Virus record (IMG/VR): IMGVR_UViG_3300033149_001247
Span: 1-50,365 of that record
DNA: 50,365 bases
Strand: one strand, 5' to 3'
DNA from: a virus
Position 1 is the first letter of the stretch. Each line of letters starts with the position of its first letter. Of this stretch, positions 14,592 through 41,941 are shown piece by piece. The notes beneath the pieces are model-generated. The model worked only from the letters and a program-made list of their open reading frames with translations. It searched no databases and had not been told where the DNA came from. The translations under genes were made by a program, and so were the position numbers.

Positions 14592-14700
14592 TTCTGGCTT
14601 CGACGAGGCCGCCAACGATAATGCCGTTGGTCTTACATCCTCTCCACCAGCGTGAGTTCCGGCAACTCCTGCCGTACCAAATAACTCAATGTTTATTGCT
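14577..14700 (-). ncRNA. Putative omega-RNA scaffold region of TnpB copy 2
   Basis: The 3' end of tnpB copy 2 (about 14591-14654) carries GAGAGGAT, TAAGACCA and ATCGTTGGC blocks at the same spacing as copy 1. Conservation at base level without gaps, between otherwise divergent genes, fits an RNA constraint. The downstream end probably lies at or beyond the hairpin at 14569-14591. The guide sequence is not determined. Confidence 0.4.
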
Positions 14701-15767
14701 GCATTTTCGTCTCGGTCATGGATAACCCCACATTCAGGACATACCCATTCTCGATCCGAAAGTTTTAACAATCCATTGATATAACCACAATGATGACAAC
14801 GCTTAGATGAAGGAAAGAATCTATCAACTTGGCTAATCTGACAGCCATACCATTTACCTTTATAAGAAAGCTGACGAATAAATTCTCCCCACCCCGCATC
14901 GGCAATAGACTTAGCGAGACAGTGATTCCGCATCATATTCTTCACGGCTAGGGACTCAGCATAGATAACTTGATTTTCATTAACTAGCTTACGAGTCAAT
15001 TTGTGAAGAAAGTCATTACGCTGATTCTTTACTTTCTCATGTTGCCTAGCAAGGACAAGTCGCGCTTTTTCCCAACCATTAGAACCCTTTTTACAACGAG
15101 ATAACCGCCGCTGCAATCGCCTCAGCCGTTTTTCGGCCTTACGAAGATATTGAGGGGCTTTTACTCGTTCACCCTTAGATGTAACAATAAAATCCTTAAG
15201 TCCTAAATCAATACCAATTATGTCGCCATTATACTCTGGCTCAAGAATCTCATCTTCACATAAAATGGAGGCAAAATACTTATCAGTCTTGGTTTGAGAA
15301 ATAACAACATGCTTCATTTTGCCTGTGATGGGTCGATGGATGGTCATACTAACTAGGCCAGGGACTTTAGGGAGACGTAATTTGCCATCCTTAATCCAGA
15401 ACCTCTGTGGTACACGAAAAGATTGCTTGCCTCGCTTACTCTTGAATCTTGGGAAACTGGCTCGACGCTTAAAGAAATTTACATATGCTGTATCAAGATC
15501 ACGCAAAGATTGCTGAAGTGATTGTGAATTGATTTCACTAAGCCAAGTATAATCAGGTTTATGCTTAAGGTCAGTCAACATCTGAGATGTGTCATAATAA
15601 TTTAGACCCTTTTTGCCATCACCACTTTTGTTGGCTATATAATAGTCAATTCGCTCACGCAAGAAATAGTTATAGACAAAACGGCAACATCCAAATTGTT
15701 TAGCAAATACTTCTTGTTGATCCTTGTTAGGATAGAGTCGAAACTTATAGGCTCGTCTAATCTTCAT
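14577..15767 (-). CDS. tnpB: TnpB-type RNA-guided nuclease, copy 2
   Basis: 396 residues from ATG 15767. RuvC-like acidic residues are D187 (GIDLGLKD), E271 (VIYAESLAV) and D353 (DRDENAAIN). The zinc ribbon is CHHCG (324-328) and CPECG (343-347). The N-terminus [17 protein letters not shown] is typical of the family. It is a different lineage from copy 1, judging by the N-terminal region and insertions. A perfect sigma-70 promoter ends 7 bp before the ATG, so the mRNA should be leaderless. No TnpA is nearby. An upstream in-frame start would run through the promoter and is rejected. Confidence 0.9.
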
Positions 15768-15774
15768 GCTTACA

Positions 15775-15803
15775 ATTATAGCGTTGTTTTTGTAACCTGT
15801 CAA
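15775..15803 (-). promoter_or_regulatory. Perfect sigma-70 promoter of tnpB copy 2
   Basis: Minus strand TTGACA (15798-15803), 17 bp spacer, TATAAT (15775-15780). The expected start site falls at or one base before the tnpB ATG at 15767, which predicts a leaderless transcript. Confidence 0.8.
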
Positions 15804-18616: not shown

Positions 18617-19203
18617 GGTTTCGCCTCCAATGCATCGGACAGCTCAGTCATCAGTTGCCTTGCTTCTATGGTCGCATCGGCACTAAAGCTGCTACTGATT
18701 GAATTCGCAAGCAGGGAAAGGAAAAGCTGCGCCTTTCTCCTTGGCTGGCCGCCCAGCAATACCTTTTCGATCCCCCGCAGCCGCTTCAACTCTGCTTGCA
18801 TATCCTCGATCCACTCAATCGCATGTGGCACACATTGAGGCCCGTGCGCCGGACATTCGGGAATAGCATCAAGTACCCTGTCACATTCCGTCAAAAGTTT
18901 ATCCGTTACGTCTAGTAGCTCCTCTGCGCATCGAGGACAGAAGCCGCGTATCGCATTCCGTGGCCTAACGCCGCGCTTGCAGTTGGCACATTCTATCATC
19001 GTGTGAAGTTCGGCTCGAACGTATTCAATAGCACCGACCTCTGGCTCACTCTCCCATGTCACCGCGCCCAGCATATCACGATGCAAATAGATTCGTTCTG
19101 GCAATTCTCTCATCTCATCCTCCAATATCGGTGCTTCGTCATTCCGTAAATAGTCGGGAGCCTCCGTTATGACAAAGTCGCCCCAATGCCCTGGGACTAG
19201 CAT
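18613..19203 (-). CDS. Accessory protein with PERIYL domain and zinc ribbon
   Basis: 196 residues from ATG 19203 (AGGAGG 8 bp upstream). Residues near 35-65 contain LPERIYLHRD...GAVTWE...IEYVRAE, a recurrent phage domain also seen in 20591-20896. A zinc ribbon follows (CANCKRG...CPRCAEE) and then helical sequence (MQAELKRLRGIEKVL). The gene belongs to the visibly G+C-rich block. Function unknown. Confidence 0.55.
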   Translation of the reverse strand: MLVPGHWGDFVITEAPDYLRNDEAPILEDEMRELPERIYLHRDMLGAVTWESEPEVGAIEYVRAELHTMIECANCKRGVRPRNAIRGFCPRCAEELLDVTDKLLTECDRVLDAIPECPAHGPQCVPHAIEWIEDMQAELKRLRGIEKVLLGGQPRRKAQLFLSLLANSISSSFSADATIEARQLMTELSDALEAKP

Positions 19204-19215
19204 CACGGCCACCTC

Positions 19216-19389
19216 CTACCAATCCTCGTCAATAATGGCGTCGCAAATCGGACACCTACCTTTGCTGTCATTGATGCAATCCATGCAAAATGGGCCAGCG
19301 TCGCACTCGTCACAATAGATTGAATCCTCACCTTTGCCTGCCCTACCAGTTGCCTCGCCGCATTTGCAACACGTTTCTATCTCGCTCAT
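19216..19389 (-). CDS. RING/FYVE-like zinc protein
   Basis: 57 residues from ATG 19389, which overlaps the stop of the gene upstream (ATGA). Cysteine pairs CCKCG, YCDECD, FCMDC and CPIC give a cross-brace-like double zinc pattern. Not recognised further. Confidence 0.55.
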   Translation of the reverse strand: MSEIETCCKCGEATGRAGKGEDSIYCDECDAGPFCMDCINDSKGRCPICDAIIDEDW

Positions 19390-19724
19390 TCCCATTTCTC
19401 TCCGACCCATACGGGCCACTCATCACTCCCCACATTTCGCCAGCCGTCCTTGTCGAATCCCAGCGCCACAATATCAGCCTCGCTCAATGCGTACAGGTTG
19501 CCGCCGCCACGCATCCAATACACCGCCTCTGCCGCATCTAGCGCCCAGTCCGCAGGCTCATCGGCTATCGCGTTCCAGCCGTCGTAACCCATGCCAGCTT
19601 CCAGGCGGTTGTAGGCCACACACGCCACGTCATGGCCAGCAGATGGGACGACGCCGACTTCACCAGTTACAATGCGGGCGACCATATAGATGACTGTGTA
19701 GGCGATGAGCGCGGCGTTAGTCAT
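19386..19724 (-). CDS. Possible SleB-like cell-wall hydrolase, membrane-anchored
   Basis: 112 residues. The N-terminal ~20 residues are hydrophobic (ALIAYTVIYMVARIV) and could be a signal anchor. The following GEVG (E22), VACVAYNRLEAG and LYALSEADIVALGF resemble SleB/CwlJ-type hydrolases, where the Glu after the first helix is catalytic. The domain is short for the family. Two 34-residue membrane peptides lie directly upstream, so lysis is a reasonable guess. It could also be an unrelated small protein. Confidence 0.45.
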   Translation of the reverse strand: MTNAALIAYTVIYMVARIVTGEVGVVPSAGHDVACVAYNRLEAGMGYDGWNAIADEPADWALDAAEAVYWMRGGGNLYALSEADIVALGFDKDGWRNVGSDEWPVWVGEKWE

Positions 19725-19821
19725 CGGTGGTTGCCTCTAGCAACAACCCCACTATTATTCCCGTTGAAAGTCCGAATACAAAGCCACATGCCGCCGCTAT
19801 CAGCACCCCAAGCAGTATCAC
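19717..19821 (-). CDS. 34-residue membrane peptide
   Basis: GTG start with AGGGGG 9 bp upstream. Nearly the whole peptide is one hydrophobic helix (ILLGVLIAAACGFVFGLS...), ending in EATTDD. It overlaps the hydrolase-like gene by 8 bp. Possibly a mini-holin or lysis accessory. Confidence 0.5.
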   Translation of the reverse strand: MILLGVLIAAACGFVFGLSTGIIVGLLLEATTDD

Positions 19822-19845
19822 GCTTCACTTCCCCCTCTCATTATA

Positions 19846-19950
19846 CTAGTCATCGCGATAAACCTCGTCTATCCACAACCATGCCATAGCAATCATACCC
19901 ACTATCGCCATGCCCAGGCAAATGAGCAATCCGAATTCTCTATCAGTCAT
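19846..19950 (-). CDS. 34-residue membrane peptide
   Basis: ATG start, sequence MTDREFGLLICLGMAIVG then a single membrane span ending in WIDEVYRDD. It overlaps the upstream gene by 8 bp and precedes the other 34-residue membrane peptide by 24 bp. Both have acidic C-termini. Confidence 0.5.
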   Translation of the reverse strand: MTDREFGLLICLGMAIVGMIAMAWLWIDEVYRDD

Positions 19951-20149
19951 CGGGCGTATCCAAAAGCAAGCCTAGCAGCCTCTGTATTCGTCGCTCTCTC
20001 ACCCAAGCAAATGTATTAGCTGCGATTTCTGCACCATGTGCGGCTACTTCTTCAGGATCACACCCGTGTGCCCGGAGATACTTGTCCACATCCTCTTCGG
20101 TTGCGTTGTATCCAAAGTTTGATCCGCTCATGCTCCTGTTATCACTCAT
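19943..20149 (-). CDS. Hypothetical protein
   Basis: 68 residues, acidic N-terminal half (NATEEDVDKYLRAHG) and a helical C-terminal half (ERRIQRLLGLLL). ATG 20149 overlaps the TGA of the ORF upstream. Not recognised. Confidence 0.5.
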   Translation of the reverse strand: MSDNRSMSGSNFGYNATEEDVDKYLRAHGCDPEEVAAHGAEIAANTFAWVRERRIQRLLGLLLDTPDD

Positions 20150-20307
20150 TGGCCAGTCTCCCTCAGCATCCTATTGATTTCGTCCCAGATCGGCCCCGCC
20201 TCTGGTAGCTCTCCCACAATGCGCACTCCGTCTAGTCGCTCAAACAGGTCACGCATCTCTAGCCAGTCAGCCTTAAAAGCACGCTTCAACGCAGGCGACC
20301 ATCTCAC
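20146..20307 (-). CDS. Hypothetical protein, start uncertain
   Basis: 53 residues from GTG 20307, ending ...WDEINRMLRETGQ. The frame stays open upstream to about 20382 (with WLLKDNVENVSIGRLL) but has no ATG, GTG or TTG there, so a non-standard start such as CTG, or a shorter protein, must be assumed. The stop overlaps the next start (ATGA). Confidence 0.45.
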   Translation of the reverse strand: MRWSPALKRAFKADWLEMRDLFERLDGVRIVGELPEAGPIWDEINRMLRETGQ

Positions 20308-20354
20308 ATCATCAGTGAGCAGCCTCCCTATTGAGACATTCTCAACATTGTCTT

Positions 20355-20591
20355 TCAGCAGCCACCTATGCTCACTCGCGTTTCACTCTCCTCTTCTCCG
20401 CAAATACTCTTCGCGTAACATGTCTTATGCCACGTCGTCCTGACTAGATGCGGAAATGGCACAAGGTCGCAATGACAAACCTCTTCCGTCCACAACAAAT
20501 CCGCTAGGGCAACCGTGGCGCAATTACGGCCACAGCCAGGGCAATTGCCTGACCAGTCGTGGGCAATACTTCTTCCCCATTTCTCGTCCAT
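20355..20591 (-). CDS. Cys-rich small protein
   Basis: 78 residues with CPGCGRNC near the N-terminus, CHCD in the middle and further Cys at KTCYAKSIC. Probably zinc-binding. It overlaps the PERIYL gene by one base (TAATG). Not recognised. Confidence 0.5.
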   Translation of the reverse strand: MDEKWGRSIAHDWSGNCPGCGRNCATVALADLLWTEEVCHCDLVPFPHLVRTTWHKTCYAKSICGEEESETRVSIGGC

Positions 20592-20896
20592 TATTCACTC
20601 TCCCCGTTTTCCTCTACCGTTTCTGAATCTTCGAGAAAGGCGGTTTCGGCGTATGCTATGCGCGGTTGAATCTCTTTTGGCTCATCTTGCCAGCCCGTCC
20701 AGTCATCGCCCCAGAATAACGCCAATCTCAGCGCCTCCCGTAATCTCACCGCCACATCCCGCCGCACGTACTCGATGTCGCTTTTGTCAATACGGTCAAC
20801 GCACCAGGTCACGCCTTCAAGATCGCTAATGCTTTCCACTGGCTCCTCCCATGCATCCAGTCCTATCTGCAAATAGATTCGCTCAGGAGCTTCCAT
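20591..20896 (-). CDS. PERIYL-domain accessory protein
   Basis: 101 residues. APERIYLQIG, VTWCVDRI and DIEYVRRD give the same small domain as in 18613-19203, followed by a helix (LREALRLALFW) and an acidic tail. Such proteins are frequent in siphophage accessory regions; function unknown. Confidence 0.6.
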   Translation of the reverse strand: MEAPERIYLQIGLDAWEEPVESISDLEGVTWCVDRIDKSDIEYVRRDVAVRLREALRLALFWGDDWTGWQDEPKEIQPRIAYAETAFLEDSETVEENGESE

Positions 20897-21293
20897 CGGT
20901 ATCCTCCTCTAGCCATGCGGTTTCGTCAATCACCGTGCCAGCCGCCCATCTTGCGTCGTCCAGCACCATGACATCAAGATTCGTCACTGGCCGATTGCTA
21001 GACAGTTTTCTCGATATTAGTCCAGCCGCTTTCACTAGCACCACGAGCACATCACGCTCTGTCACCGCCGCCTCCAACACGCGGGGAAGGTCTGTGCGGG
21101 CGTTAACGCAAAACATCACGTCATAGATGCTAACTAGCGGATCCTCAATGGCATATATTAACGCCAAGCGATCAACTTTGAGCCGCGTTAATATCTCGCT
21201 TGTTTTAGACGTGCCCTCAGAGAAATACCATTCTCCCCCTGTCGCCGCCTCGCAGTACGCTCGGATTTCGTCAGCCGTTCGCTGCTCAGTCAT
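20883..21293 (-). CDS. Ead/Ea22-like accessory protein
   Basis: 136 residues from ATG 21293, with GGAGGAG directly upstream. IRAYCEAATGGEWYF and VNARTDLPRVLEAA match the common phage pattern 'CEAATPGPW ... ARTDLPxLL' of Ead/Ea22-like proteins. The C-terminus is acidic. Function in the family is unclear. Confidence 0.6.
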   Translation of the reverse strand: MTEQRTADEIRAYCEAATGGEWYFSEGTSKTSEILTRLKVDRLALIYAIEDPLVSIYDVMFCVNARTDLPRVLEAAVTERDVLVVLVKAAGLISRKLSSNRPVTNLDVMVLDDARWAAGTVIDETAWLEEDTDGSS

Positions 21294-21516
21294 CGCTCCT
21301 CCTCCGTTCCCATATCCACCATCGCACCCGCGCCGGTATGTCAATTATTGCCCACCACAGAAGCCGCCTCAGCGGAATGTTCATGCACACGTAGCCCCGC
21401 GCCTCTCCGTCGCAGTAACCGACTAGCCCCTCCTCAATCCAATCAGCCGGCGTCCCGTCCGGCCATTCATCGGCGTCCCCCATCTCGTAGACTTCGAGTA
21501 GTGCGTATCGCCACAC
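21286..21516 (-). CDS. Hypothetical protein with hydrophobic C-terminal segment
   Basis: 76 residues. Acidic N-terminal half, then a Trp-rich hydrophobic segment (LRRLLWWAIIDIPARVRWWIW) reported here by its core LLWWAIIDIPA, and a basic end. It may associate with the membrane. Not recognised. Confidence 0.5.
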   Translation of the reverse strand: MWRYALLEVYEMGDADEWPDGTPADWIEEGLVGYCDGEARGYVCMNIPLRRLLWWAIIDIPARVRWWIWERRRSDD

Positions 21517-21517
21517 G

Positions 21518-21877
21518 TTATACGTCCTCCCATTCTGTCACATACCCGCCGCTCTCATACCGGTATGATTCGCCGCCACGTGACAAGGCCCGTCTCAACG
21601 TCTTGATAGCCTCTCCATTCTCAATCATCTTCTTCGTAACACGAATCAGGCACCAGGATTCTATGTTCGCCTCGTTGTATTTCTCGATATCACCGTAATA
21701 CCGGTTCAATTTGTGGTGCCCGAAGCCCTCAACTTCCAGCAATACCCGCTGCGGCACGAAGGCAAAGTCGGCCCGCCACTTGCGCAACTCGTGCCACTTG
21801 AACTCACGCATGTAGCCAGTTATTCCTGCCGCGCGAAGGTGCAGATCCATTGTCGCCTCTAGGTCAGATTGTGTCAT
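21518..21877 (-). CDS. Vsr/DUF559-like PD-(D/E)xK endonuclease
   Basis: 119 residues. HELRKWRADFAF (D37) followed by VLLEVEGFG (E48, E50) gives the D...ExE core of very-short-patch-repair-like nucleases. Then EKYNEANIESWCLIRVT and a helix with GEAIKTLRRAL, typical of phage members of this superfamily. It probably nicks or cleaves DNA or Holliday junction-like structures; the substrate is unknown. ATG 21877 overlaps the membrane-peptide gene upstream. Confidence 0.7.
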   Translation of the reverse strand: MTQSDLEATMDLHLRAAGITGYMREFKWHELRKWRADFAFVPQRVLLEVEGFGHHKLNRYYGDIEKYNEANIESWCLIRVTKKMIENGEAIKTLRRALSRGGESYRYESGGYVTEWEDV

Positions 21878-22014
21878 CGCATCCCTCCCAGTATCGCGCC
21901 CCAGATCGCCAGTGCCCCAGCCACATTGCCAGCAAGCAGCTTTCTAACAATACTATTCTCTCCAGTCTCAATAGGCTCCCGTGGAATCCCGCAAATGAAT
22001 AGATTAGCTTTCAT
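21874..22014 (-). CDS. 46-residue membrane peptide
   Basis: Sequence MKANLFICGIPREPIETG then a C-terminal hydrophobic helix (NVAGALAIWGAILGG). ATGA overlaps link it to both neighbours. Function unknown. Confidence 0.5.
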   Translation of the reverse strand: MKANLFICGIPREPIETGENSIVRKLLAGNVAGALAIWGAILGGMR

Positions 22015-26160: not shown

Positions 26161-26582
26161 TATTGTGCTCCTGGCAAAGTCTTCATCCCACCCGTGCCAT
26201 GAATCGGCACAGCACAGGCTTTCTCTCCAGCTTTCAATGGTATATTAACAGGCTGGTTAGATAGAGAATCAGTTTGCGGATTAGCTATTGGTGGAGCAAC
26301 GGGCTGGATTGGTTGAGCCACAGGCCGAGTAACTGGTTGCACTAGTTGACTAACAGGTTGCTGAGTAGGCTGTTGCTGAGGTTGCTCTCCTCGTTGAGCC
26401 ATCAATATCCCACGCATCTTGGGCCGCGCCAAGACTATGGCTTGAGCCTTGTGTAATGCTTCTTGGAATGTTGACTTATCAAGAGGATGGAGAATAGGTA
26501 GCTTGTTATACATCGTCCAGAGAGAGGCCAGCAATGTAATGATGCTATCCTCTAGCTTAACCTGCTCTTGTATTTCGCTCAT
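26160..26582 (-). CDS. Pro/Gln-rich linker protein
   Basis: 140 residues from ATG 26582 (ATGA overlap with the methyltransferase upstream). The N-terminal half is helical (DSIITLLASLWTMYNKL). Residues about 70-115 are a low-complexity P/Q/V-rich tract (QPQQQPTQQPVSQ, RPVAQPIQPVAPP), suggesting an extended linker. Not recognised. Confidence 0.5.
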   Translation of the reverse strand: MSEIQEQVKLEDSIITLLASLWTMYNKLPILHPLDKSTFQEALHKAQAIVLARPKMRGILMAQRGEQPQQQPTQQPVSQLVQPVTRPVAQPIQPVAPPIANPQTDSLSNQPVNIPLKAGEKACAVPIHGTGGMKTLPGAQ

Positions 26583-27322
26583 AGTCTCTCCCACTTCTCA
26601 GCTAACTCTTTAGCATCTTGCCCTGTAATCCTTGACTTAAACAGAAACGGCACTATTGGTTGCGCCACTAATTTCCATACTTTATCCCAGTAACGCGGCC
26701 TAAGGTGGTGCATAGGATACCTATCATTGCCAGATACCCTAAAATCGCTGTTCCACAAAGCATAGGTACTATGGGTCATAATTTCGGCTAGCATCGCGTA
26801 GGGGGCATTAGAGTGGCCAATTACGTCAGTACAGATAATACAGTCATAGTTATTGACTACTGGTTGGACTATTAAACTAGGATCAAACAATCTCCACTGA
26901 ACCTTTGGCCCTAGTTTATACTTATTAACCTTCCAAGCGGCAAATGCCATTGCGGGACAGTTGAAGTCTGCTATAACAACAGTCTTAACATCACTCTCTT
27001 CAGCTAAGACCAGAGAATGAGTAGCTATGCCAGCACCATAATCTAGGATTGACTGCCAGTCGAACCTTTCGGCATACTCTAGCAAAGTATCATTCCATCG
27101 GCGCACAGTGGCGTCTCTATCATGCCAATCTGAACATTCTTGTAGATAATGCTGAGTCTTGAGATAAAACTGGTTCTCTTCCTCTGGAGTCTGTGGAGAT
27201 AGCCTATTCCATTCTTCTTTGGCCAAATCGCCAATCAATTCCATTGGTCTATTGGCAACGCCATATGGCAAGTTAAGATATTCGGCTAAGTCTTGTCGCA
27301 TAAATTTTATGATTTTAGACAT
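26579..27322 (-). CDS. SAM methyltransferase-like protein (paralogue of 3219-3983)
   Basis: 247 residues. ILDYGAGIAT at 92-101 with HSLVLAE following, IADFNCPAM at the second strand and IICTDVIGHS. All landmarks match the 3219-3983 gene at the same positions. It follows a GT2 gene with an 8-bp overlap, as its paralogue does. Substrate unknown. Confidence 0.75.
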   Translation of the reverse strand: MSKIIKFMRQDLAEYLNLPYGVANRPMELIGDLAKEEWNRLSPQTPEEENQFYLKTQHYLQECSDWHDRDATVRRWNDTLLEYAERFDWQSILDYGAGIATHSLVLAEESDVKTVVIADFNCPAMAFAAWKVNKYKLGPKVQWRLFDPSLIVQPVVNNYDCIICTDVIGHSNAPYAMLAEIMTHSTYALWNSDFRVSGNDRYPMHHLRPRYWDKVWKLVAQPIVPFLFKSRITGQDAKELAEKWERL

Positions 27323-28034
27323 TGTTACCCTTCACATATGGATTATGATACTGAGGTAGTCCCAATTCCTTAAACAGGTCTATTGACTTATTCCAAGCTC
27401 TTTCTTGTGGGTCAAAGTATGTCTGCTTCTCAACCCTCATATATGTCTCATTATCACAAGATGACCTCTTAAGATACCTTGTATGGTAAGCATGTGGGCC
27501 ACCTTCAAAGTATAACGCTGATTTGCTAAAGTCGGTTGTGCTTTCGAATGGATACTTGCCTAGCCACTCAGCATCTTTGCGATGTAGCCTGTGCTGGGAT
27601 ATGCCATCAGCAAGGATAAACTGGCCATCTTGCCATAGGATGTTATGCACATGAACGAAACCAGTGGCTATGTCATAATTGTCTATGTCGGTATGTAAAA
27701 CACTCTCTAATTTACGCCGCATCCATAGCTCGTCTCCGTCAATTTGCAAAATCCAGGGAGTTTCTACAAACTTGGCTAAATATTGCCTAACCAAGCCATT
27801 TTCTTCAGGGGTTATATTTTTATGGCGAACATAGTAGAATTGTTGAGAGTAAGAATCTTTAACTTGTGTCTGCATAGCCAAGATAATGTTGGGAGTGTTA
27901 TCTTGGCTAGCACAGTCAGCAATGTATAAAGGGAGTTGTAATTCTAGGATAGGCTTTAGTGCTAAATCTATCCAGTATTCTTCGTTTGCCACCATCATGA
28001 CGACAGAGACTTTTGAGCCCAATGTACAAGACAA
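27315..28034 (-). CDS. GT2-family glycosyltransferase (paralogue of 3964-4734)
   Basis: 239 residues from TTG 28034, with AAGGGAG upstream. VVMMVANEEYWID, ADCASQDNTPN and LQIDGDELWMRR are the nucleotide- and metal-binding motifs. Order and spacing are the same as in 3964-4734. Part of the macro-domain operon. Confidence 0.8.
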   Translation of the reverse strand: MSCTLGSKVSVVMMVANEEYWIDLALKPILELQLPLYIADCASQDNTPNIILAMQTQVKDSYSQQFYYVRHKNITPEENGLVRQYLAKFVETPWILQIDGDELWMRRKLESVLHTDIDNYDIATGFVHVHNILWQDGQFILADGISQHRLHRKDAEWLGKYPFESTTDFSKSALYFEGGPHAYHTRYLKRSSCDNETYMRVEKQTYFDPQERAWNKSIDLFKELGLPQYHNPYVKGNNV

Positions 28035-30246: not shown

Positions 30247-31371
30247 TTACACCACAACCCGAAGATTGTGTCGATGCTTTTGAATTGTTTCGATACTATT
30301 AGCAAGAGACTGATTAAGAGCGTCCTCAGGAGCATGTTGTTTTTCAACAACTGTCTCCTTGGGTTCATCAGTAATAGTCTCTGGTTCACTAGATGGGCGA
30401 TAAGCTAGACGCATACGCGGAAGCTGCTTTTGCATATCAGCAAGTTTATCTTCGTCTGTCTTGAGCAAGTGATTGAGAATCTTGCCCACAGAGTCCAACT
30501 GAGTTGCCATAGTCTTAAGCTGCTTCTGAACATCTTCCACAGCGGTCTGCTCTGGAGCGGGTATACGCTGCGCGACTTCCTGTGCCAATGTCTGGATAGT
30601 AGGAAGGTCAAGCTCTAGGACAAAATCTTTAACAGTCTCTTCCTCAGCAGGTTTTTCTACAACCACTTCTGGTTCTACTACTTCTGGTTCTACAACTGGA
30701 GTCTCTACTGGCTCGGCAACAGGATCGGCAACGGGAGTTTCTACAACAACATCTTCCGTCGCCTTTATCACCTCTTCAGTATTTTCCTCAGTCTTTAGCC
30801 CCAACTCTTCACCGGCCTGCATTTTGATACCTATCTTTGACGCTTGCTCCAGGAGGTCTGCCGCCAAGTCCTTATTGCCACCTAGCATTTCTGTGAGCTT
30901 ACTAACAAGCTCTTCTTGTTTTTCCATGGATATTACCTCCGTATTCATAAGTCTGATATTGGTGAATAAAGCCGCTGCATCTGGCTCTTCCACTATACTT
31001 CGTTCAAAGATTCTGATCTTTTCATAGCAATTATCTACAAGGTCACTAGGTCGATACTTAAAACCTATGGATAAGCCATACTTCTCGGGGGTAGTGTTTA
31101 CCGTAGAGCGAACTTGAACGGCCATATCAGCGTCATCAAATGTGCCACTTTCGATTAAGAACATGCCGATTCGCAAAGAACTGTCGCATATTCCTACTCG
31201 GGTTCCTGGCAAATGATAAATCCTAAGTTCACCGTAGTCGCCCTTGGCGGCCTTTATAGAGTAGTCAATAGCTTTAGTGGCAACCGTTTCGCCAGTGCGA
31301 TCTTCAAATGCAGAAGAAGACACACCGACCCAGCGAAATTCGCCAGTAGAACTCTTGAATATCTGAAACAT
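30247..31371 (-). CDS. Prohead protease fused to scaffold domain
   Basis: 374 residues, GGAGGG before the ATG. Residues 1-140 resemble the HK97-family prohead protease: H53 in LRIYHLPG and S101 in GLSIGFKYRP are the likely catalytic pair. Residues 150-374 are acidic, helical and repetitive (PVAEPVETPVVEPEVVEP, then LDSVGKILNHLLK), as in scaffolding domains that are cleaved out during maturation. The tail contains LAYRPSSEPET, echoed in the portal C-terminus. Transcribed from the promoter at 31458-31486. Confidence 0.82.
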   Translation of the reverse strand: MFQIFKSSTGEFRWVGVSSSAFEDRTGETVATKAIDYSIKAAKGDYGELRIYHLPGTRVGICDSSLRIGMFLIESGTFDDADMAVQVRSTVNTTPEKYGLSIGFKYRPSDLVDNCYEKIRIFERSIVEEPDAAALFTNIRLMNTEVISMEKQEELVSKLTEMLGGNKDLAADLLEQASKIGIKMQAGEELGLKTEENTEEVIKATEDVVVETPVADPVAEPVETPVVEPEVVEPEVVVEKPAEEETVKDFVLELDLPTIQTLAQEVAQRIPAPEQTAVEDVQKQLKTMATQLDSVGKILNHLLKTDEDKLADMQKQLPRMRLAYRPSSEPETITDEPKETVVEKQHAPEDALNQSLANSIETIQKHRHNLRVVV

Positions 31372-34020: not shown

Positions 34021-35367
34021 CTAGAAGATATATCCCCCTCCTGCACCTTCGTCATAGTCTCCCTCCAGTGAGCACAATACAGCAGCGTCTGCGAAGTCGG
34101 GACTGCGGCCTAGCTTCTTCCTTATCAGTGGTTTCGGATCCATCAACTTACGCCCCTGCCTATCAAAATCATATGTCTGCGCAGTAAGTTCTAAGAGTAA
34201 ATCAGGATGATCGGGGATTGACCTGTCGCCAGTGACAATTCTTCGCGCCAGTTGAGCATAGGCATATGCGCGAGTATTAGCGAACCTTCTATCAGGCGGA
34301 GTTTTCTTAAAGTTAATGTTCTCTACGTTGAACTCACCCTCTAGTAACATATTGTCATATATCCCAGCGCCGTAACCTATGCCATCAATGTTAATTATAT
34401 CTGGCATAACTTGCCTAGCAATATCCTTAATGCGCCCTTCAGTATAAGATAATAAGGTGTTAGACCATGACTCTATCCTAGTGCCAATAGTCTTACCGGT
34501 ACGCACCATGACGACATTCTTATCTCCCCCTAAGCGAGCGATGTCAACCCCCATAATAATAGGATCTACGTCAGGCAATTCCAGCCCTATGGCTTCTTCT
34601 AGCTTCTGTGAGTCAAAGACATATAGTACATCGCCAGAACTGTCTACGAATTCACCTAATACCTGAGTTTTGTATTCCACCGGATCGGTAATGCTATCAA
34701 TATATTCTTTGTCTACTCTCGGCGAGTCTAACCCCGATGTATGGAATAATTCATATCCAGGGATTTTTCTTTCAAAGATGTCGCGAAAGTAGCAAGCATG
34801 GGGATGGCGCGGGGGAGTACTTAGTACTAATATCTTGGCATACTTTGTAGTTAAACAACCAGCGATACTGTTAAAAGTTGCTCTTGTAACTAGCTTGGCC
34901 TCATCAACAATAAACAGTATATGTTCAGCGTGGAATCCTTCTAGTTTTTCGGGGTCATTAGATGACTCCCCTACAGCAAACCAGTATTTACTAAGATAAA
35001 TACCTAGCTTCTGAGGATCAATAGAGGAATCATCAAAGCCTAATTTGGTAAAGTCAATTCTACTATACCACTTATGAACTTCTGGCCATAGCATCTTGGC
35101 CACTTGTCGCCAGTTAGATGCTGTAGTAACAGTGTTAGACTCATAAAAAAGAAGTGTGTGCCAAAGAACAATCCATGCGGCCAATCCAGTTTTGCCAACG
35201 CCGCGCCCTGCTCTCCACGCCACTTTAGACCGAGGCTTACCAGCAACTGCATCCATTACTTCAACCTGGTAATCTTCTGGCTCAGCCCCTATTACTTCTT
35301 TAACAAATAGAGCAGGATTACGTCGGTATGTTATTAGGCGTTGCGCTAGCTCAGGTGTGATACTCAT
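34021..35367 (-). CDS. terL: Terminase large subunit
   Basis: 448 residues. ATPase: Walker A-like RAGRGVGKT (52-60), Walker B ILFIVDEAK (150-158), coupling motif LSTPP. RNase H-fold nuclease: D275 in GVDIARLGGD, D328 in NIDGIGYG, D427 in SPDFADA. It pumps DNA into the prohead and cuts the concatemer. The start is placed at ATG 35367 (MSITPELAQRLI) because the same 12 residues are repeated at 42761-42796; ATG 35394 in the same frame is the alternative. Neither start has a strong ribosome site. Confidence 0.95.
   Translation of the reverse strand: MSITPELAQRLITYRRNPALFVKEVIGAEPEDYQVEVMDAVAGKPRSKVAWRAGRGVGKTGLAAWIVLWHTLLFYESNTVTTASNWRQVAKMLWPEVHKWYSRIDFTKLGFDDSSIDPQKLGIYLSKYWFAVGESSNDPEKLEGFHAEHILFIVDEAKLVTRATFNSIAGCLTTKYAKILVLSTPPRHPHACYFRDIFERKIPGYELFHTSGLDSPRVDKEYIDSITDPVEYKTQVLGEFVDSSGDVLYVFDSQKLEEAIGLELPDVDPIIMGVDIARLGGDKNVVMVRTGKTIGTRIESWSNTLLSYTEGRIKDIARQVMPDIINIDGIGYGAGIYDNMLLEGEFNVENINFKKTPPDRRFANTRAYAYAQLARRIVTGDRSIPDHPDLLLELTAQTYDFDRQGRKLMDPKPLIRKKLGRSPDFADAAVLCSLEGDYDEGAGGGYIF
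35332..35367 (-). repeat. terL 5' end, copy A of a 36-bp direct repeat
   Basis: The first 12 codons of terL recur at 42761-42796 with 33 of 36 bases identical; the three differences are synonymous. Confidence 0.85.
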
Positions 35368-35406
35368 ACTAAGAGTATAACTGAAAACGGTCATTACGTC
35401 AACCAA

Positions 35407-38157
35407 TTATGACGGTGCGCCAACTCCCATAATAGGCAATCTTGGAGCAGTCGGTGGCATAGATATACTAGTGCTGGTGCTACTTGAACTACTGCTAGAA
35501 CTGCTAGAGCTAGATGACGAAGACGAGCTACTGCTACTGGAGCTGCTACTAGAGGATGATGAAGAACTGCTGCTGCTTGATGAAGAACTACTACTTGATG
35601 AACTAGAACTAGACGAAGATAATGACGAGCTTGATGAAGAAGAACTCGAAGATGATGACGATGATGACGAGGAGGAAGAACTACTAGATGAGGAGCTACT
35701 TGATGATGAACTAGAGCTACTAGAGCTACTTGATGAGCTGCTACTAGAACTGCTAGAGCTTGAACTGGAGGACGATGAACTTGAGCTGCTACTACTGCTC
35801 GACGAGCTTGAGCTTGAACTACTAGAGCTTGAAGAACTTGATGATGAAGACGAGCTACTTGATGAAGAGCTTGAGCTAGACGAACTGCTCGATGAGCTAG
35901 AGCTGCTTGACAATGAACTTGAAGACGAACTGGATGAACTAGAAGAACTTGAAGATGACGAGCTGCTGGACGACGAAGATGAGCTACTACTACTAGAACT
36001 GCTACTTGAGGATGAGCTAGAACTTGAGGAGCTGCTGCTTGAGCTTGACGAGGATGAGCTGCTACTTGAGCTTGATGAACTAGAACTGGAGCTACTCGAA
36101 GAACTACTACTAGACGAACTCGATGATGAACTACTTGAACTAGATGAAGATGAGCTACTGGACGAGGATGACGAACTAGAAGACGAGCTACTAGACGAAG
36201 AGCTTGAACTAGAGCTACTGCTCGATGAAGAGCTTGAGCTACTACTGCTAGAACTGCTGCTTGACGAAGATGACGAGGAACTAGAGCTACTACTACTAGA
36301 TGAACTCGAAGAACTGGATGATGACGAACTGCTGCTACTCGAACTAGAGCTACTGGAGCTAGACGAGCTGGAACTAGATGACGAAGAACTTGATGAAGAG
36401 CTGCTACTTGACGAACTGGAGCTTGAACTACTACTGGAACTTGACGAACTGCTAGAAGACGAAGATGAACTTGACGAGCTGCTGCTGGAGCTACTACTAG
36501 AAGACGAGCTACTGCTCGATGAGCTGGATGACGAACTTGAACTTGACGAGCTACTCGAAGACGAGGAACTTGAACTAGAAGACGAGCTACTTGATGAGGA
36601 ACTACTAGACGAGGAGCTACTAGAGCTACTGCTACTGGAACTACTACTTGAGCTGCTACTTGATGAAGATGAGCTTGACGAAGATGAACTACCAGTGCTA
36701 TATTCAATGTGGAGTTTTGCACCCGATACGTTGCCAGAAGATTCATAGGTGAGACATCTAGTAACTTTGAGTGCATCTGTCTTCCCAATGAACATGAAGG
36801 CCATATTGTTATTAGCCGACCATGATCCCCTATCTACTATTTCCTGAACAACAAGCTTGAGGCTGGGTGACTGTTTCCACCCAGTGCCGAGGCCGTCCTG
36901 TACCCAGGCCGCTGATTCTGCCGTCCGCGCCCTAGACCAAAGGGTATCATCACTGAAATCTACAGCACTGTCAACATCATTGCCATAAATGTCCATGTTA
37001 ATGTCGTCATATGTATCATTACTAATATAGATTTCTATATAAGCAACATCAATGGTAGCGCCTTGTGCAACATTGACAGTCTGAAATCTTACACCTCCTC
37101 CTTTATAAGCGTTATTCGCTACGTCTGTATTTGACTGAAGCTCCATAACGGTATTGGTAATAGCACTATAATAGTACTCACCCTCCCAGACATACCATCT
37201 AGTTGTATCATCATTCCCTTCCCCTACCTGCTCATCTATATCGGGGTCGAAGATAATAGTGCCTTCCGGCAGAGCATTGAGCGCAAGGACAGGCGCACCG
37301 ACCAGCAGATAGTGCTTGTCGTTCTTCTTGATGAACCGCTTGCGCAGATGAACCTGTATCGGCTCATCGTTCTCGTCAACAGGTTCGCCCTCGGGCCACG
37401 CCTTGCTCGCAGGCAGTGCGGTGATTATCTCATCTTGATGGTTTTTGAGATACAGTCTAGTCGCTCGCTCAAAATCAGAATCCTTATCTATATTGCCCTC
37501 GTCATCAGCCAGCCCTGGCACTTGTCCCCAACCTACTTCGTAGACCATGACCAGATATGTATCAGCGGCAGGATATGGTGGGTGAGGCATTGCATCCCTG
37601 GCGGCTTGGCTGACCTTTATCTCCTCATGCAACTTATCACCAGAGATGTGTATCTCAAAGTCCACGCCAGGGAAGAGGTCGGCCCAAGTCAGTTTGCCCG
37701 TCGGATTCGGAAGCAGAGCATTCCCGTGGTCAATTGCTTCCGCGCTGGGTGTCCCATAACTGGCCTCGCGGATGGTCGTATATTCCTTCGTGGCTATGTT
37801 AAGGTACGCTATGCGGTCAAGTCTAAGTCCGATCCCCACGCCCTTCTTTTCAGCGGCGAACCAGCCACCGTTTCTGGCTAGGAATCGCCAGTGGGACTTC
37901 TGCATCTCCCAATCCCAGCCAGGCTCGTCACTGGGTACTATGCGCGGGTCTACGTCAAGCCACTGGCCTGAACCTTCTACTTCCTCATAGTGTAGAGAAC
38001 CAATCGTGGCATCTAAGGAATACTGTCCAGTAGGATTCCCGTTAATGTGAAGGTGTTTCGTCTTGGACGTGCGGGTACGTCTGGCCGAGATTTCACGCCA
38101 TTCTTCATTCCACTCAAATTCAGGGGAACCCTCTGCCAGAAAATGTTTCTTAGCCAA
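35407..38157 (-). CDS. Giant polyserine appendage protein
   Basis: 916 residues from TTG 38157 (GAGGG upstream). Residues 1-320 are a mixed domain with many Trp and charged residues. Residues about 325-488 form a beta-rich domain (GVRFQTVNVAQGATIDVAYIEI, LKLVVQEIVDRGSW, AKLHIEY) resembling carbohydrate-binding-like beta-sandwiches of extracellular proteins. Residues 490-893 are almost pure serine, broken by only two Leu. A short tail (PPTAPRLPIMGVGAPS) follows. The tract uses all six Ser codons. It is probably an exposed virion fibre or appendage. The long ORFs on the opposite strand and in the second minus frame are by-products of the codons. Confidence 0.8.
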   Translation of the reverse strand: MAKKHFLAEGSPEFEWNEEWREISARRTRTSKTKHLHINGNPTGQYSLDATIGSLHYEEVEGSGQWLDVDPRIVPSDEPGWDWEMQKSHWRFLARNGGWFAAEKKGVGIGLRLDRIAYLNIATKEYTTIREASYGTPSAEAIDHGNALLPNPTGKLTWADLFPGVDFEIHISGDKLHEEIKVSQAARDAMPHPPYPAADTYLVMVYEVGWGQVPGLADDEGNIDKDSDFERATRLYLKNHQDEIITALPASKAWPEGEPVDENDEPIQVHLRKRFIKKNDKHYLLVGAPVLALNALPEGTIIFDPDIDEQVGEGNDDTTRWYVWEGEYYYSAITNTVMELQSNTDVANNAYKGGGVRFQTVNVAQGATIDVAYIEIYISNDTYDDINMDIYGNDVDSAVDFSDDTLWSRARTAESAAWVQDGLGTGWKQSPSLKLVVQEIVDRGSWSANNNMAFMFIGKTDALKVTRCLTYESSGNVSGAKLHIEYSTGSSSSSSSSSSSSSSSSSSSSSSSSSSSSSSSSSSSSSSSSSSSSSSSSSSSSSSSSSSSSSSSSSSSSSSSSSSSSSSSSSSSSSSSSSSSSSSSSSSSSSSSSSSSSSSSSSSSSSSSSSSSSSSSSSSSSSSSSSSSSSSSSSSSSSSSSSSSSSSSSSSSSSSSSSSSSSSSSSSSSSSSSSSSSSSSSSSSSSSSSSSSSSSSSSSSSSSSSSSSSSSSSSSSSSSSSSSSSSSSSSSSSSSSSSSSSSSSSSSSLSSSSSSSSSSSSSSSSSSSSSSSSSSSSSSSSSSSSSSSSSSSSSSSSSSSSSSSSSSSSSSSSSSSSSSSSSSSSSSSSSSSSSSSSSSSSSSSSLSSSSSSSSSSSSSSSSSSSSSSSSSSSSSSSSSSSSSSSSSSSSSSSTSTSISMPPTAPRLPIMGVGAPS
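35479..36690 (-). repeat. DNA encoding a ~404-residue serine homopolymer
   Basis: About 404 codons of AGC, AGT, TCA, TCC, TCG and TCT in mixed order. Two single-base changes give Leu (TCG to TTG and TCA to TTA). There is no exact tandem unit at base level, so it is a protein-level rather than DNA-level repeat. Confidence 0.95.
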
Positions 38158-39358
38158 TCTCTTCCCTCACTTCAGGAGAAACGTTCGCCTCCCGCCTGGG
38201 ATAAATCTCATTGTATCGCCTCAGCACATCTTCTAATTCCTTCTCACTGGCTACTAGTGCATAGTAATAAGCGTTGGGCCTCACGGCCTCTTTCCAATCT
38301 TCTCCTTTCCACACCCTAAAGTCGCCTGTCCAGATTCCTTCGCTTCCCCTCTTGGCCGTCTTGCCATCCACGATAATTGTGTCACCATGGTGCTGACGTA
38401 ATCGCCTTGGCTCAGCCCACTCCATGAACTTCTCGGTCGGGTTCCACGCCACGATGCTGTATGGATTTGGGATATTGTGCCACGGCTTACTGAATGCTCT
38501 CTTTCTTAGCCCGTCATGAGCCTGCTTGATGATTCTGGCAGTCTTTTTCAACTCTCCAACCTTCACTACAACTGTCAGCCAAGGTTCTCCCCACTGAATG
38601 CCCCTACCATACTGTGGCCAGTTCTGCTGCATCCAAACCAACCTCTTTTCGTACACTGATCCATACTGGTTCGGCCATACGCCAGTCTCCAGGAACAACC
38701 GTCTAAAACTGCCGCTAGCTCTTCGATAAGGATGGACATTCATAACTGAGTGAACTATGAATCCAGCCTCCTGCCACTGACAAGCCATTTCATCATCATC
38801 AACTCCCCAGCCAGGTTCGCCGAAGGGGCCTTCTTCAGTGAACCTGTGGTCATCCCAAACCCCTTTGCGGCAAAGCGCGTAGGCCGTCAGACTCAGAGAT
38901 CGGTTGTGATAAGCAGAGTACTTTGTCTTCTCCTCTGGATCATCTATGCGATAAGGCCATCGTCTCCACGCCTTATTCTTATCAGTCTCGAAGTGCCCAA
39001 CATCTATGCCTACCACATCTACTCTCTTGAACCTGGTCTCCGTAACGGGATGCCTCTCAAGATAATCAAGCATCCTCTTTGTGCCATCAACCAAAGGACG
39101 TATCCCACCATCCAACATCAAGACGTAATCGAACTCTCCAGCAGCTTCTAGGCCAGCGTTACGTCCAGGGCCAGCACCATGGTTCTCTCTGATGAGAGGA
39201 ATAAGGTCTGGCTGAGTAGCCAACCACTCATTTGTTCCATCATTAGAGCCATTACTGACTACAATTATCTCATCCACAAGAGGATCATTTCTAAGAATAG
39301 GAATCTGTTCTTTTAGTAGCGGCAAGTTATCCAGGGAAGTTATAATTGCTTTCAGCAT
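38150..39358 (-). CDS. GT2-type glycosyltransferase with C-terminal extension
   Basis: 402 residues from ATG 39358 (GAGGA 6-7 bp upstream). IIVVSNGSNDGTNEWL is the nucleotide-binding motif, GAGPGRNAGLEAA the following helix, and YVLMLDGGIRP the metal site (DGG in place of the usual DxD). GEPGWGVDDDEMACQW holds the likely catalytic acid. The last ~110 residues are an extra region with no recognised fold. It lies directly upstream of the polyserine protein (8-bp overlap), which makes that protein a candidate acceptor. Confidence 0.78.
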   Translation of the reverse strand: MLKAIITSLDNLPLLKEQIPILRNDPLVDEIIVVSNGSNDGTNEWLATQPDLIPLIRENHGAGPGRNAGLEAAGEFDYVLMLDGGIRPLVDGTKRMLDYLERHPVTETRFKRVDVVGIDVGHFETDKNKAWRRWPYRIDDPEEKTKYSAYHNRSLSLTAYALCRKGVWDDHRFTEEGPFGEPGWGVDDDEMACQWQEAGFIVHSVMNVHPYRRASGSFRRLFLETGVWPNQYGSVYEKRLVWMQQNWPQYGRGIQWGEPWLTVVVKVGELKKTARIIKQAHDGLRKRAFSKPWHNIPNPYSIVAWNPTEKFMEWAEPRRLRQHHGDTIIVDGKTAKRGSEGIWTGDFRVWKGEDWKEAVRPNAYYYALVASEKELEDVLRRYNEIYPRREANVSPEVREEIG

Positions 39359-40691
39359 ACATATCCTCAATGCCTACTTTCTTAAAGCTATCGTAGCCCC
39401 AACTCTTTAGCAACTCTATTATTAGCTCTGACTTGTAATTAAACTGTTGCGTGTTTAACTCTTGATACTCAAACAGTATTGACGGCAAGAATTTCTTTAT
39501 TGTAGTCTCTGCGCCCAACAAAACATATAGCTCATTTCCCTCAGTATCAATCTTGAGAAAATCTAATGCCGGAAGATTATAACTGTCTAGTCGCTTAACC
39601 GTTGTGGGCACACCGTGCCATATAAGCCCCCTTGGCCTCGGGATTCCCAAACATCCCAGGGCCATATGGATAGCGTTGTCTGGTGTCATTAGCGTTCCCA
39701 TCTTCTCAACATTCGACAATGCTTCTTGACGCAATTGCACTCTTTCTTGGAGATTGTGCAAGACAACATTACTCTTTAATATGTTAAACACTATCGGATT
39801 AGGCTCAAATGCTAGAACTTTCATTCCCGAATGTAGTAATGGTAATAAGGCAAAACTGCCGGTACTAGCTCCAACATCTACTACAAACGGATGTTCCACT
39901 GACTTCGTTTGCTCGTAAAAGAACTTAACAAGGTTGCCATCATAAGCTAATGGCTTACCATCGGCATCACGCCATTGCCAAGAACCACCAAAGTATCCCG
40001 AGCGAGCATCAAGCATTATGGGTTGATCAGCCCACCATGTAGCATCTATTACAGGCCGAGACGTAAAAGTATTTTCATCCCATTTGTATCCATATCGGTC
40101 AGCCACAACCAGCAATTTGTCTCTTAATTTAGGGGATATATCTTCTAACTTAACATCAGAAAGACCAAGACCAGGGCGGCTGTTATATAACTTGTTAGAG
40201 AACGGATTCTGTACTGTTATGTTTAGGAACTGCTCCAATGATGCAGTGCTGTCTTCTATTCTGTGCCTAAAGTGAGCATGTGGTTCTATCATCTCGTTAA
40301 ACGCTATATACCAATAAGCCATACTATCTACTGGGTTCAGCAGCTTAATCTCAGGGATAAACTGAGCTGCCCAGTCAAAGTATGGCTTAGTATTAGAGTA
40401 TAAGATTAGTCTTAGGAAAGAGTCCATGGTTGGTTTAGGGTGACGCATAACATGAATCACAGTCATATCCTCTAGCTCTGGTCGTCCTAGCCATGGAGCG
40501 GCTAACCATGAAGAGTCGGCTTGCCAGCCCCAACTAGGATTAGCAAGCCTTAACCTAATCTGTTCTAATGCATAGTCCCATCCTTCTCTGTTAAACACTT
40601 GTTCATGTGTACACTTGATACCAGCACTGGTAAGCCACTTCGCCATAAACCCCGTGCCGCATCTGCCAGTACCAGTGACGATAATGTTCAT
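39327..40691 (-). CDS. Sulfotransferase-FkbM methyltransferase fusion
   Basis: 454 residues. Residues 1-205 resemble a PAPS-dependent sulfotransferase: P-loop-like TGTGRCGTGFM (6-16) binds the 5'-phosphosulfate and VIHVMRHP (78-85) is the 3'-phosphate region. Residues about 265-454 are an FkbM-type SAM methyltransferase (FVVDVGASTGSFAL from 269, LAFEPNP from 293, LDFLKIDTEGNE from 376), a family that O-methylates sugars. One protein would thus both sulfate and methylate. It overlaps the GT2 gene downstream and abuts the GT4 gene upstream. Confidence 0.8.
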   Translation of the reverse strand: MNIIVTGTGRCGTGFMAKWLTSAGIKCTHEQVFNREGWDYALEQIRLRLANPSWGWQADSSWLAAPWLGRPELEDMTVIHVMRHPKPTMDSFLRLILYSNTKPYFDWAAQFIPEIKLLNPVDSMAYWYIAFNEMIEPHAHFRHRIEDSTASLEQFLNITVQNPFSNKLYNSRPGLGLSDVKLEDISPKLRDKLLVVADRYGYKWDENTFTSRPVIDATWWADQPIMLDARSGYFGGSWQWRDADGKPLAYDGNLVKFFYEQTKSVEHPFVVDVGASTGSFALLPLLHSGMKVLAFEPNPIVFNILKSNVVLHNLQERVQLRQEALSNVEKMGTLMTPDNAIHMALGCLGIPRPRGLIWHGVPTTVKRLDSYNLPALDFLKIDTEGNELYVLLGAETTIKKFLPSILFEYQELNTQQFNYKSELIIELLKSWGYDSFKKVGIEDMYAESNYNFPG

Positions 40692-41941
40692 TATTCACCT
40701 ACTGGGTCTAGATAAAGCAGAGGCTCAAATGACTTCCATAGTGCCTGCGGCGTCCATTCTTTTCTGGCAACCTGTCTAGCCATCAATGCTCTATTCTGTG
40801 ATAACTCGGCTATTAGGCGTTTTGCTTCATCATCCCAAAATGATTGCTCATCAGGTTGGTATTCTCTATTTATCCTATCACTACTGAAGTCAAAATAGAT
40901 CGCATTATTGCCATAAAGTTCTCTCATCATTGGCAAATCATGGTTTAGCACCACCAAGCAACCTCTTAGCATAGCCTCATGGACAACAAAACTATATGTC
41001 TCAACTCTGCTAGGATGGATGTAGACATTAGATAAATCCATTAGCTCAACAACAATCTTTCGAGGAACTCCCTGGGAACATCTGTCATCTAGTCTACTTG
41101 TAAATGCTACTTCTCCTTCTAACCCCAGGTTCTTGGCCAGTGTCAATAGCTCATCTATGTAATCCTGGAATCTCTTGCCCATTGATTGCCAATCTATAAC
41201 CAGAAGCCTTGGAGTATAGCCTAGTTTTTTAACCCCCGCTAGTAACCTTATAATCTTCTCTGGCTGTTTACCCTTATCTAACCTAGCAGGATATACAACT
41301 GAGACATCGCCACCACATAAGTCAAACTTATTTACCAAGTCCTGGGTCAGTCCATCATAAGGCCATAACAACATTGGGTCAATAGCATGTCCTGCTCGCG
41401 ATACTTTAACCTTCCATTCTTGCCCACCTAATCCATATGCTCCGACTACTAATGCCTTATCAGAATCGTTAGGATAAACTATGTATCCTGGCGGAGGAGT
41501 AAATCGGCAATTATCAGGGTACTTATTCTGGTCGCCAGCACTTGGGCAAGAGTGTATCCAATGTAACCATAGAAGTTTATGGTTTTTGGCATATCGTCGC
41601 ATAGCTACATTATGCTCTTTGTAAAATGCCTGCAAGATGATGTCCTGTGTAATACAGACATCAATTCCATCCAGGTTTTCTTCTAAGGCAGTATAGATTT
41701 TGTTTACTCTTTCTTCAAAGTCTTCTGCCACTCCTTGGGTTAATGTTAGCTTGGGAATCACTGCCCGTATATCTAGCATCTCTGGCGTCCACATACCATG
41801 AAACTTGAAATCTTCTTGCACTAATACTACTGGTTCATATCCGTGGTCTACTAACATTCGTATCTGAGTTTCTGTTACTGCTACTAATGAATATCCTGAT
41901 TCAACTTCAAAGAACGTAGTAAATAGCGCAACCTTTTTCAC
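40691..41941 (-). CDS. GT4-family glycosyltransferase
   Basis: 416 residues. VALFTTFFEVESGYSL is the N-terminal acceptor loop, VVYPARLDKGKQPEKIIRLLAG the classic GT4 inter-domain segment, and VYIHPSRVETYSFVVHEAMLRG the donor-binding E(x7)E-like motif. It is not closely related to the other GT4 domains in the window. It overlaps the sulfotransferase gene by one base. Sugar and acceptor unknown. Confidence 0.85.
   Translation of the reverse strand: MKKVALFTTFFEVESGYSLVAVTETQIRMLVDHGYEPVVLVQEDFKFHGMWTPEMLDIRAVIPKLTLTQGVAEDFEERVNKIYTALEENLDGIDVCITQDIILQAFYKEHNVAMRRYAKNHKLLWLHWIHSCPSAGDQNKYPDNCRFTPPPGYIVYPNDSDKALVVGAYGLGGQEWKVKVSRAGHAIDPMLLWPYDGLTQDLVNKFDLCGGDVSVVYPARLDKGKQPEKIIRLLAGVKKLGYTPRLLVIDWQSMGKRFQDYIDELLTLAKNLGLEGEVAFTSRLDDRCSQGVPRKIVVELMDLSNVYIHPSRVETYSFVVHEAMLRGCLVVLNHDLPMMRELYGNNAIYFDFSSDRINREYQPDEQSFWDDEAKRLIAELSQNRALMARQVARKEWTPQALWKSFEPLLYLDPVGE

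Follow-up and report, generated by a model that had tools for sequence, protein, structure and literature searches.

Nearly pure serine tracts written with mixed codons are known from the polyserine linkers (PSLs) of carbohydrate-degrading bacteria such as Saccharophagus degradans, Teredinibacter turnerae and Cellvibrio japonicus. PSLs average 39-44 residues with 80-83% serine and lie between the modules of secreted enzymes (PMC2386152, PMC2699552), where a role as a flexible tether has been proposed (PMC2386152, PMC2699552, PMC10598543). Lectin- or CBM-like domains are frequent neighbours. A survey of low-complexity regions in prokaryotes and phages reports poly-Ser in polysaccharide enzymes, and the longest region in its 102 phage proteomes spans 115 residues (PMC6821194). 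Capsid glycosylation has been described in the F1 mycobacteriophages Che8 and Rita, whose genomes encode glycosyltransferases and for which a surface coat has been proposed (PMC11256854). Annotated records of the cultured cyanophages P-SSM4, P-RSM3 and ACG-2014d, phages of Prochlorococcus and Synechococcus, provide a C-terminal poly-Ser stretch on a structural protein of tailed phages, namely about 25-35 serines near the C-terminus of the gp53 baseplate wedge. The SRRPs of Gram-positive bacteria are surface proteins with a long serine-rich region, built from dipeptide repeats and accompanied by GtfA/GtfB, SecA2/Y2 export and an LPXTG anchor. Phage collagen-like repeat proteins, one of which is encoded in the same neighbourhood in a relative of the virus studied here (L003), are extended, low-complexity proteins of virion type. 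We found no earlier description of polyserine tails in phages in the open-access literature, in which the known cases are short linkers of bacterial enzymes.

The sequence analysed here, referred to as the window, is the whole 50,365-nucleotide stretch of IMG/VR virus record IMGVR_UViG_3300033149_001247. An ORF on its minus strand (35407..38157) encodes a 916-residue protein that has a TTG start and begins MAKKHFLAEGSPEFEWNEEWREI. The poly-Ser tract (35479..36690, minus strand) occupies residues 490-893 and comprises 402 serines and two leucines in 404 codons (99.5% serine), with unbroken runs of 259, 96 and 47. The initial annotation had reported a serine homopolymer of this length using all six serine codons, and its coordinates proved exact. 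The codon counts are AGT 99, TCA 85, AGC 80, TCT 65, TCG 46 and TCC 27, together with one TTG and one TTA. These last two encode Leu 749 (35911..35913, minus strand) and Leu 846 (35620..35622, minus strand), and each is a single C-to-T step away from TCA or TCG, in agreement with the earlier remark that both lie one base from a serine codon. Past the tract there is only a 23-residue C-terminal peptide, TSTSISMPPTAPRLPIMGVGAPS (35410..35478, minus strand).

Like a PSL, the tract is mostly serine, but at 404 residues it far exceeds the usual tens of residues, is C-terminal rather than placed between two folded modules, and belongs to a phage structural module. The protein has no Pfam or NCBIfam match that would make it a carbohydrate-active enzyme or a CBM protein. 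The cyanophage gp53 serines follow a Thr- or Ser/Thr-rich stretch and end in Gly/Tyr on an unrelated protein. The window protein is pure serine where SRRPs carry Ser-X repeats, its C-terminus (MPPTAPRLPIMGVGAPS) lacks LPXTG, and no other SRRP hallmarks were seen. Collagen-like proteins wind repeated GXY triplets into a triple helix, as opposed to a presumably disordered homopolymer. Like Che8 and Rita, the window phage carries glycosyltransferase genes, whereas no poly-Ser has been described for those phages (PMC11256854) and any glycan on the window protein would be hypothetical.

The order of the serine codons appears random. Neighbouring AGY and TCN codons follow one another by chance (chi-square p = 0.82) and no significant lag periodicity was detected in the tract (maximum z 3.3, p = 0.10), as expected from the random mixing proposed initially. 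The longest repeated codon word is six codons, equal to that in shuffled tracts, and words of four and five codons show a slight, marginal excess (p 0.03-0.04). Matches returned by TRF are at shuffle level by the periodicity and codon-word tests. We also considered whether the window tract had lately undergone triplet slippage or block duplication and rejected this, the marginal word excess being its only sign. The fraction of AG-type serine codons is 0.445, near the 0.43 for serine codons elsewhere in the window, although the full six-codon profile departs from that of the rest of the window (p = 2e-5), with TCG over- and TCT underrepresented. Threonine is absent, though it lies one base from every serine codon. 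Long open frames overlap the tract in minus frame +1 and in one plus frame. However, every off-frame codon in the tract starts with G or C, so that no stops are possible and the open frames are no evidence of overprinting; a second gene within the tract was therefore rejected.

Upstream of the tract, the protein contains two conserved regions. The N-terminal platform (residues 18-310; 37228..38106, minus strand) recurs at 71-77% identity in four viral contigs besides L002 (L003/L057, L004, L058 and L059), relatives in which the tract is lacking or the gene is cut short. It has no match over cut-off in Pfam, PHROG or NCBIfam, and a search of annotated phage records yielded none. By eye, the N-terminus (MAKKHFLAEGSPEFEW) contains no hydrophobic segment. 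The second region (residues 355-486; 36700..37095, minus strand) is a probably beta-rich domain; megaplasmids of Sinorhizobium and Ensifer encode homologues of it within long ORFs that carry no annotation (tblastn 5e-11 and 1e-9; blastp 37% over 140 residues). In these large Rhizobiaceae ORFs the homologous domain precedes cadherin-like repeats, and one ORF also has apparent phosphoesterase and RTX-like parts by eye. These neighbours suggest that the domain may be a surface or secreted beta-sandwich. The serines begin three residues past its last conserved strand (AKLHIEY-STG). Searches of Pfam, PHROG and NCBIfam with this domain gave nothing over cut-off. The DNRLRE domain (NF033679) does not match it, and a bacterial relative (L073) scores 13.5 against that model's cut-off of 34. 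Profile searches against the PDB produced chance matches only, the best being to a designed Pizza protein (E 4e-4 over 30 columns) in which no stretch passes on its own. AlphaFold models had a pLDDT of 33 for residues 1-486 and 44 for residues 312-486, both too poor for use.

The gene for the terminase large subunit lies directly downstream (34021..35406, minus strand; phrog_2, E 2e-37), and a head maturation protease/scaffold-like protein is encoded at 30247..31371 (minus strand; phrog_9427, E 2.7e-4). Together, these two genes place the poly-Ser gene in a head/packaging module. Our reading of the translations puts homologues of the protein next to terminase/portal-region genes in L003 and L004, and upstream of scaffold-like and capsid-like genes in L058. 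The L003 terminase gene (L003:4142-6604) has an apparent intein-like insert by eye. Elsewhere in the window, two genes (9400-10647 and 14577-15803) resemble OrfB/TnpB of the IS200/IS605 type by eye. The region from 19000 to 22000 has a G+C content of 0.50-0.54, compared with 0.43, and is dense with very short minus-strand genes.

The sole tract-bearing relative found is L002 (IMGVR_UViG_3300033148_008653), which is 100% identical to the window along 6.7 kb except for a missing 29-bp stretch (window 38943-38971). Its 404 tract codons are identical base for base, and the presence of the tract in this independent contig indicates that it is no assembly accident. The L003 and L058 homologues stop about 15-20 residues past AKLHIEY with no serine tract; those of L059 and L004 run off the end of their contigs. 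Either the window lineage has thus gained the tract as a C-terminal extension, or the other lineages have lost it. Homologues of 60% identity have no tail at all, so the protein can perform its core function without one.

The action of selection on such tracts was evaluated with sister sequences of other poly-Ser loci (the five closely related contigs L007, L014, L015, L016 and L023, whose tract has ~950 residues, and the pairs L020/L024 and L017/L018). These differ by in-frame indels of 30, 141, 21, 27 and 15 nt plus a few smaller ones. Their substitutions comprise roughly 11 distinct synonymous changes and a single nonsynonymous one, some of the L017/L018 changes adjoining indels and hence being less certain. 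If selection were absent, a nonsynonymous share of 72-77% would be expected in such serine codons. The probability of observing one nonsynonymous change in 12 is then about 1e-6, or about 8e-4 if only the five secure changes are counted. The window tract itself was computed to drop to about 80% serine at 0.1 substitutions per site without selection. Its codons are mixed close to saturation, yet only two of 404 are not serine, and on these grounds together with the synonymous bias of the sister tracts we conclude that serine identity is under selection, for composition rather than for any particular sequence. Selection for serine itself, as first suggested from the window alone, is therefore upheld.

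Sister tracts also indicate how such regions grow. The tract of L025 consists of 15-codon units and that of L017 of 39-codon units, and a signal of block duplication or slippage is clear in L025, L017, L005 and L007. Growth proceeds by in-frame duplication of mixed-codon blocks followed by synonymous drift that erases the repeat, and the window tract stands at the erased end of this scale. The original argument that slippage does not explain the tract hence stands for triplet slippage in the window, but it does not extend to the sister tracts, which grow by duplicating blocks of mixed codons. In L025 (1224-3908), the poly-Ser region has one Phe per 15 residues within its 15-codon tandem unit. 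A conserved ASSLPHKVEFKDDTYDYKFK tail is common to L025, L017, L018, L083 and L113.

We scanned 2.9 million viral contigs three times, using a degenerate pattern that requires mixed AGY/TCN order, and recovered 79 stretches with mixed-codon poly-Ser in 40 DNA clusters, representing about 40 unrelated groups. The longest of these tracts reach 909-982 residues at 92-94% serine, and the window tract is the purest among the long tracts seen. Where the C-terminal end is intact, 25 of 37 tracts lie within 45 residues of the C-terminus, compared with 8.3 expected under uniform placement. At least two tract-bearing ORFs are present in 12 of the 40 clusters, counted within the retrieved stretch. For example, L021 has tracts on two cement-protein paralogues, one further module protein and a tail tube protein, and L076 with its sister contigs has four proteins with tracts. 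Exhaustive scans for 47 consecutive threonine or glycine codons served as a control, yielding maxima of 81 residues for threonine and 126 for glycine, with lower codon entropy, compared with 982 for serine. Tracts of at least 100 residues number 23 for serine, none for threonine and two for glycine. Because short tracts escape the serine pattern more readily, this comparison is limited to the maxima and to the counts of at least 100 residues.

These data bear on the possibility that the tract is a repeat that expanded, neutrally or selfishly, in a C-terminus that is dispensable and has no function. Such an origin would account for the absence of the tract from homologues and for the in-frame block duplications and length polymorphism of sister tracts. 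It predicts neither near-saturated codons with two changes in 404, when about 80% serine is expected at 0.1 substitutions per site, nor the roughly 11 to 1 ratio of synonymous to nonsynonymous changes. The recurrence of tracts on virion proteins, several per genome, and the far greater length reached by serine than by threonine or glycine also oppose it, and we regard neutral expansion as highly improbable.

Family assignments point to virion parts for several carriers. The poly-Ser carrier of the Phage_cement_2 family in L009 scores over the Pfam cut-off, and those in L021 and L098 fall just below it, both of the latter also matching head PHROG 673. Pfam further assigns poly-Ser carriers to Phage_tube_2 (L011, L021) and DUF2460 (L076, L079), and places poly-Ser on an F5/8C protein (L094) and on laminin-G-like proteins (L005, L025). 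Among many unrelated phages, long serine tails have thus evolved on repeated occasions, on capsid and tail proteins as well as on fibre-like ones. We define these as poly-Ser-tailed phage virion proteins, a class with a mixed-codon tract near the C-terminus and a gene in a structural module, into which the window protein fits. That the carriers are virion parts is inferred from gene context for the window protein and from family identity for those of L009, L011, L021, L076 and L098.

In many samples, the scans encountered a 63.8-kb virus (L085, L096, L114, L119, L122, L124 and related loci) encoding a 973-residue protein that is 94% serine over 909 residues, with only 24 residues before the tract and 40 after it. 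The tract has equal length in six samples and is shorter (803) in L089. Cysteine-rich proteins with long, pure poly-Ser of similar style occur at L026-L051 (MAG SIG52), L055, L013 and L067, loci that come from an Alphaproteobacteria MAG, a Peribacteraceae MAG and viral contigs. Two further loci, L008 (IMG/VR 2708742752_000007) and L031 (Zixibacteria MAG MEWP01000063.1), share the same length of 94133 and overlapping content, so that either the MAG has taken in a viral contig during binning or the sequence is a prophage.

A location of the window protein on the virion is likely, given its gene order within the head/packaging module and the poly-Ser tails on known virion families elsewhere, and the placement first proposed is supported to this extent. 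Alternatively, the protein could act inside the host, for example in packaging or in a lysis-related process, with the tail as a solubility or phase-separating tag. The platform has no family match, which leaves room for such a role. However, the gene occupies a head-module position in several phages, C-terminal poly-Ser elsewhere sits on cement, tube, DUF2460 and gp53 proteins, and the domain at residues 355-486 is shared with surface-type proteins of bacteria, making an intracellular function very unlikely.

The tract could also be a polyserine linker in the manner of the Cellvibrio, Saccharophagus and Teredinibacter carbohydrases, tethering the beta-sandwich domain to a C-terminal binding peptide. 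Applied to bacterial genomes, the same search pattern mostly recovered known polyserine-linker bacteria, among them Marinagarivorans, Microbulbifer and Teredinibacter, along with a few MAGs, and the window tract matches these PSLs in composition and codon mixing. A folded domain begins right after the tract in L012, L013 and L067, as in a linker, and some poly-Ser carriers have lectin-like domains (LamG, F5/8C). On the other hand, only 23 residues lie beyond the window tract, most viral tracts are terminal, and the tract is ten times the typical PSL length (mean 39-44 residues, PMC2699552). We consider a linker function distinctly unlikely.

Three genes on the minus strand directly upstream of the poly-Ser ORF match known families: a GT2-like glycosyltransferase (38150..39370), an FkbM methyltransferase with a P-loop-like N-terminal half (39327..40691) and a GT1-like glycosyltransferase (40691..41941). 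The initial annotation had described the second of these as a sulfotransferase-methyltransferase fusion; the methyltransferase and both glycosyltransferases were matched, while the sulfotransferase half, proposed from the P-loop-like N-terminus, found no HMM support. The tract might accordingly serve as a glycan scaffold whose serines are densely O-glycosylated by phage or host enzymes, creating a glycan shield or adhesive. This is favoured by the two glycosyltransferases and the methyltransferase next to the tract, by the abundance of glycosyltransferase genes in the window and by the capsid glycosylation of Che8 and Rita (PMC11256854). However, the seven genes with GT1/GT2 domains are spread along the window from 0.6 to 42 kb, so that adjacency to the tract is not special and is weak evidence. 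The window also holds several more methyltransferases, and two homologous methyltransferase-GT2 pairs (3219-4761 and 26579-28034), 23 kb apart, have the look of a duplicated cassette.

Comparisons across genomes reduce the association further. The independent occurrence of tract and modification genes had been named at the outset as evidence against a link to the upstream glycosyltransferases, and the two do occur apart. Homologues without the tract retain glycosyltransferase or methyltransferase neighbours, with a glycosyltransferase gene directly downstream in L003 and 5 kb away in L058. Conversely, the 29-bp deletion in L002 frameshifts the adjacent GT2 gene after 134 codons and leaves the tract intact, although this is one contig and an assembly error is possible. 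Most poly-Ser records are free of these domains: GT1 or GT2 is present in 13 of 48 records overall and in 9 of the 26 viral records of at least 35 kb, both counts covering poly-Ser records alone. None was found in the record of the 63.8-kb phage with its 909-residue tract. A dedicated glycosyltransferase that accompanies its target, the arrangement of the Che8 type, was not seen across the relatives and poly-Ser records. In addition, threonine, which O-glycosylating enzymes usually accept, is excluded from the tract. Host enzymes might act on the serines instead, but these observations lower the likelihood of glycosylation, and we consider the glycan scaffold unlikely.

The explanation that we favour, with roughly an even chance of being correct, is that the window tail is a disordered, hydrated C-terminal brush on a virion surface protein. 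The protein would combine a conserved N-terminal platform, a probable beta-sandwich domain, the 404-residue polyserine tail and the 23-residue end peptide. The tail is expected to be disordered, uncharged and strongly hydrated. By textbook polymer scaling, a tail of 404 residues has a contour length of about 140 nm and, as a random coil, measures roughly 15-20 nm end to end. A flexible brush of this kind could hold the particle surface hydrated, space particles and proteins apart, and let the terminal peptide or domain sweep a large volume. Its benefit may be that of a spacer, a stealth coat, an adhesive or a glycan carrier. Computation establishes the tract, its purity and codon randomness, the selection on sister tracts, the gain or loss relative to 60%-identical homologues and the recurrence on virion proteins of other phages; we infer the benefit, the disorder of the tail and the virion location of the protein. 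No other ORF of the window phage contains a run of six or more serines, which would restrict any brush to this single protein.

More broadly, poly-Ser brushes of tens to ~1000 serines on several exposed proteins of one particle (cement, tube, DUF2460 and fibre proteins) might constitute a convergent virion-surface system of many uncultivated phages, selected for composition alone. Such brushes would serve either as the protein equivalent of a PEG coat or as an all-purpose coat that adheres or accepts glycans. We hold this wider proposal to be plausible but somewhat short of an even chance. A long homopolymer would be expected to be unstable and of no use, yet the one described here, 400 residues in length, has stayed pure while its codons became mixed almost to saturation. 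Provided that the tails do sit on virions, polymer coats have evolved in phages time and again, and virion surface chemistry, including hydration, shielding, adhesion to particles or mucus, and glycan carriage, would be testable with short, easily built constructs.
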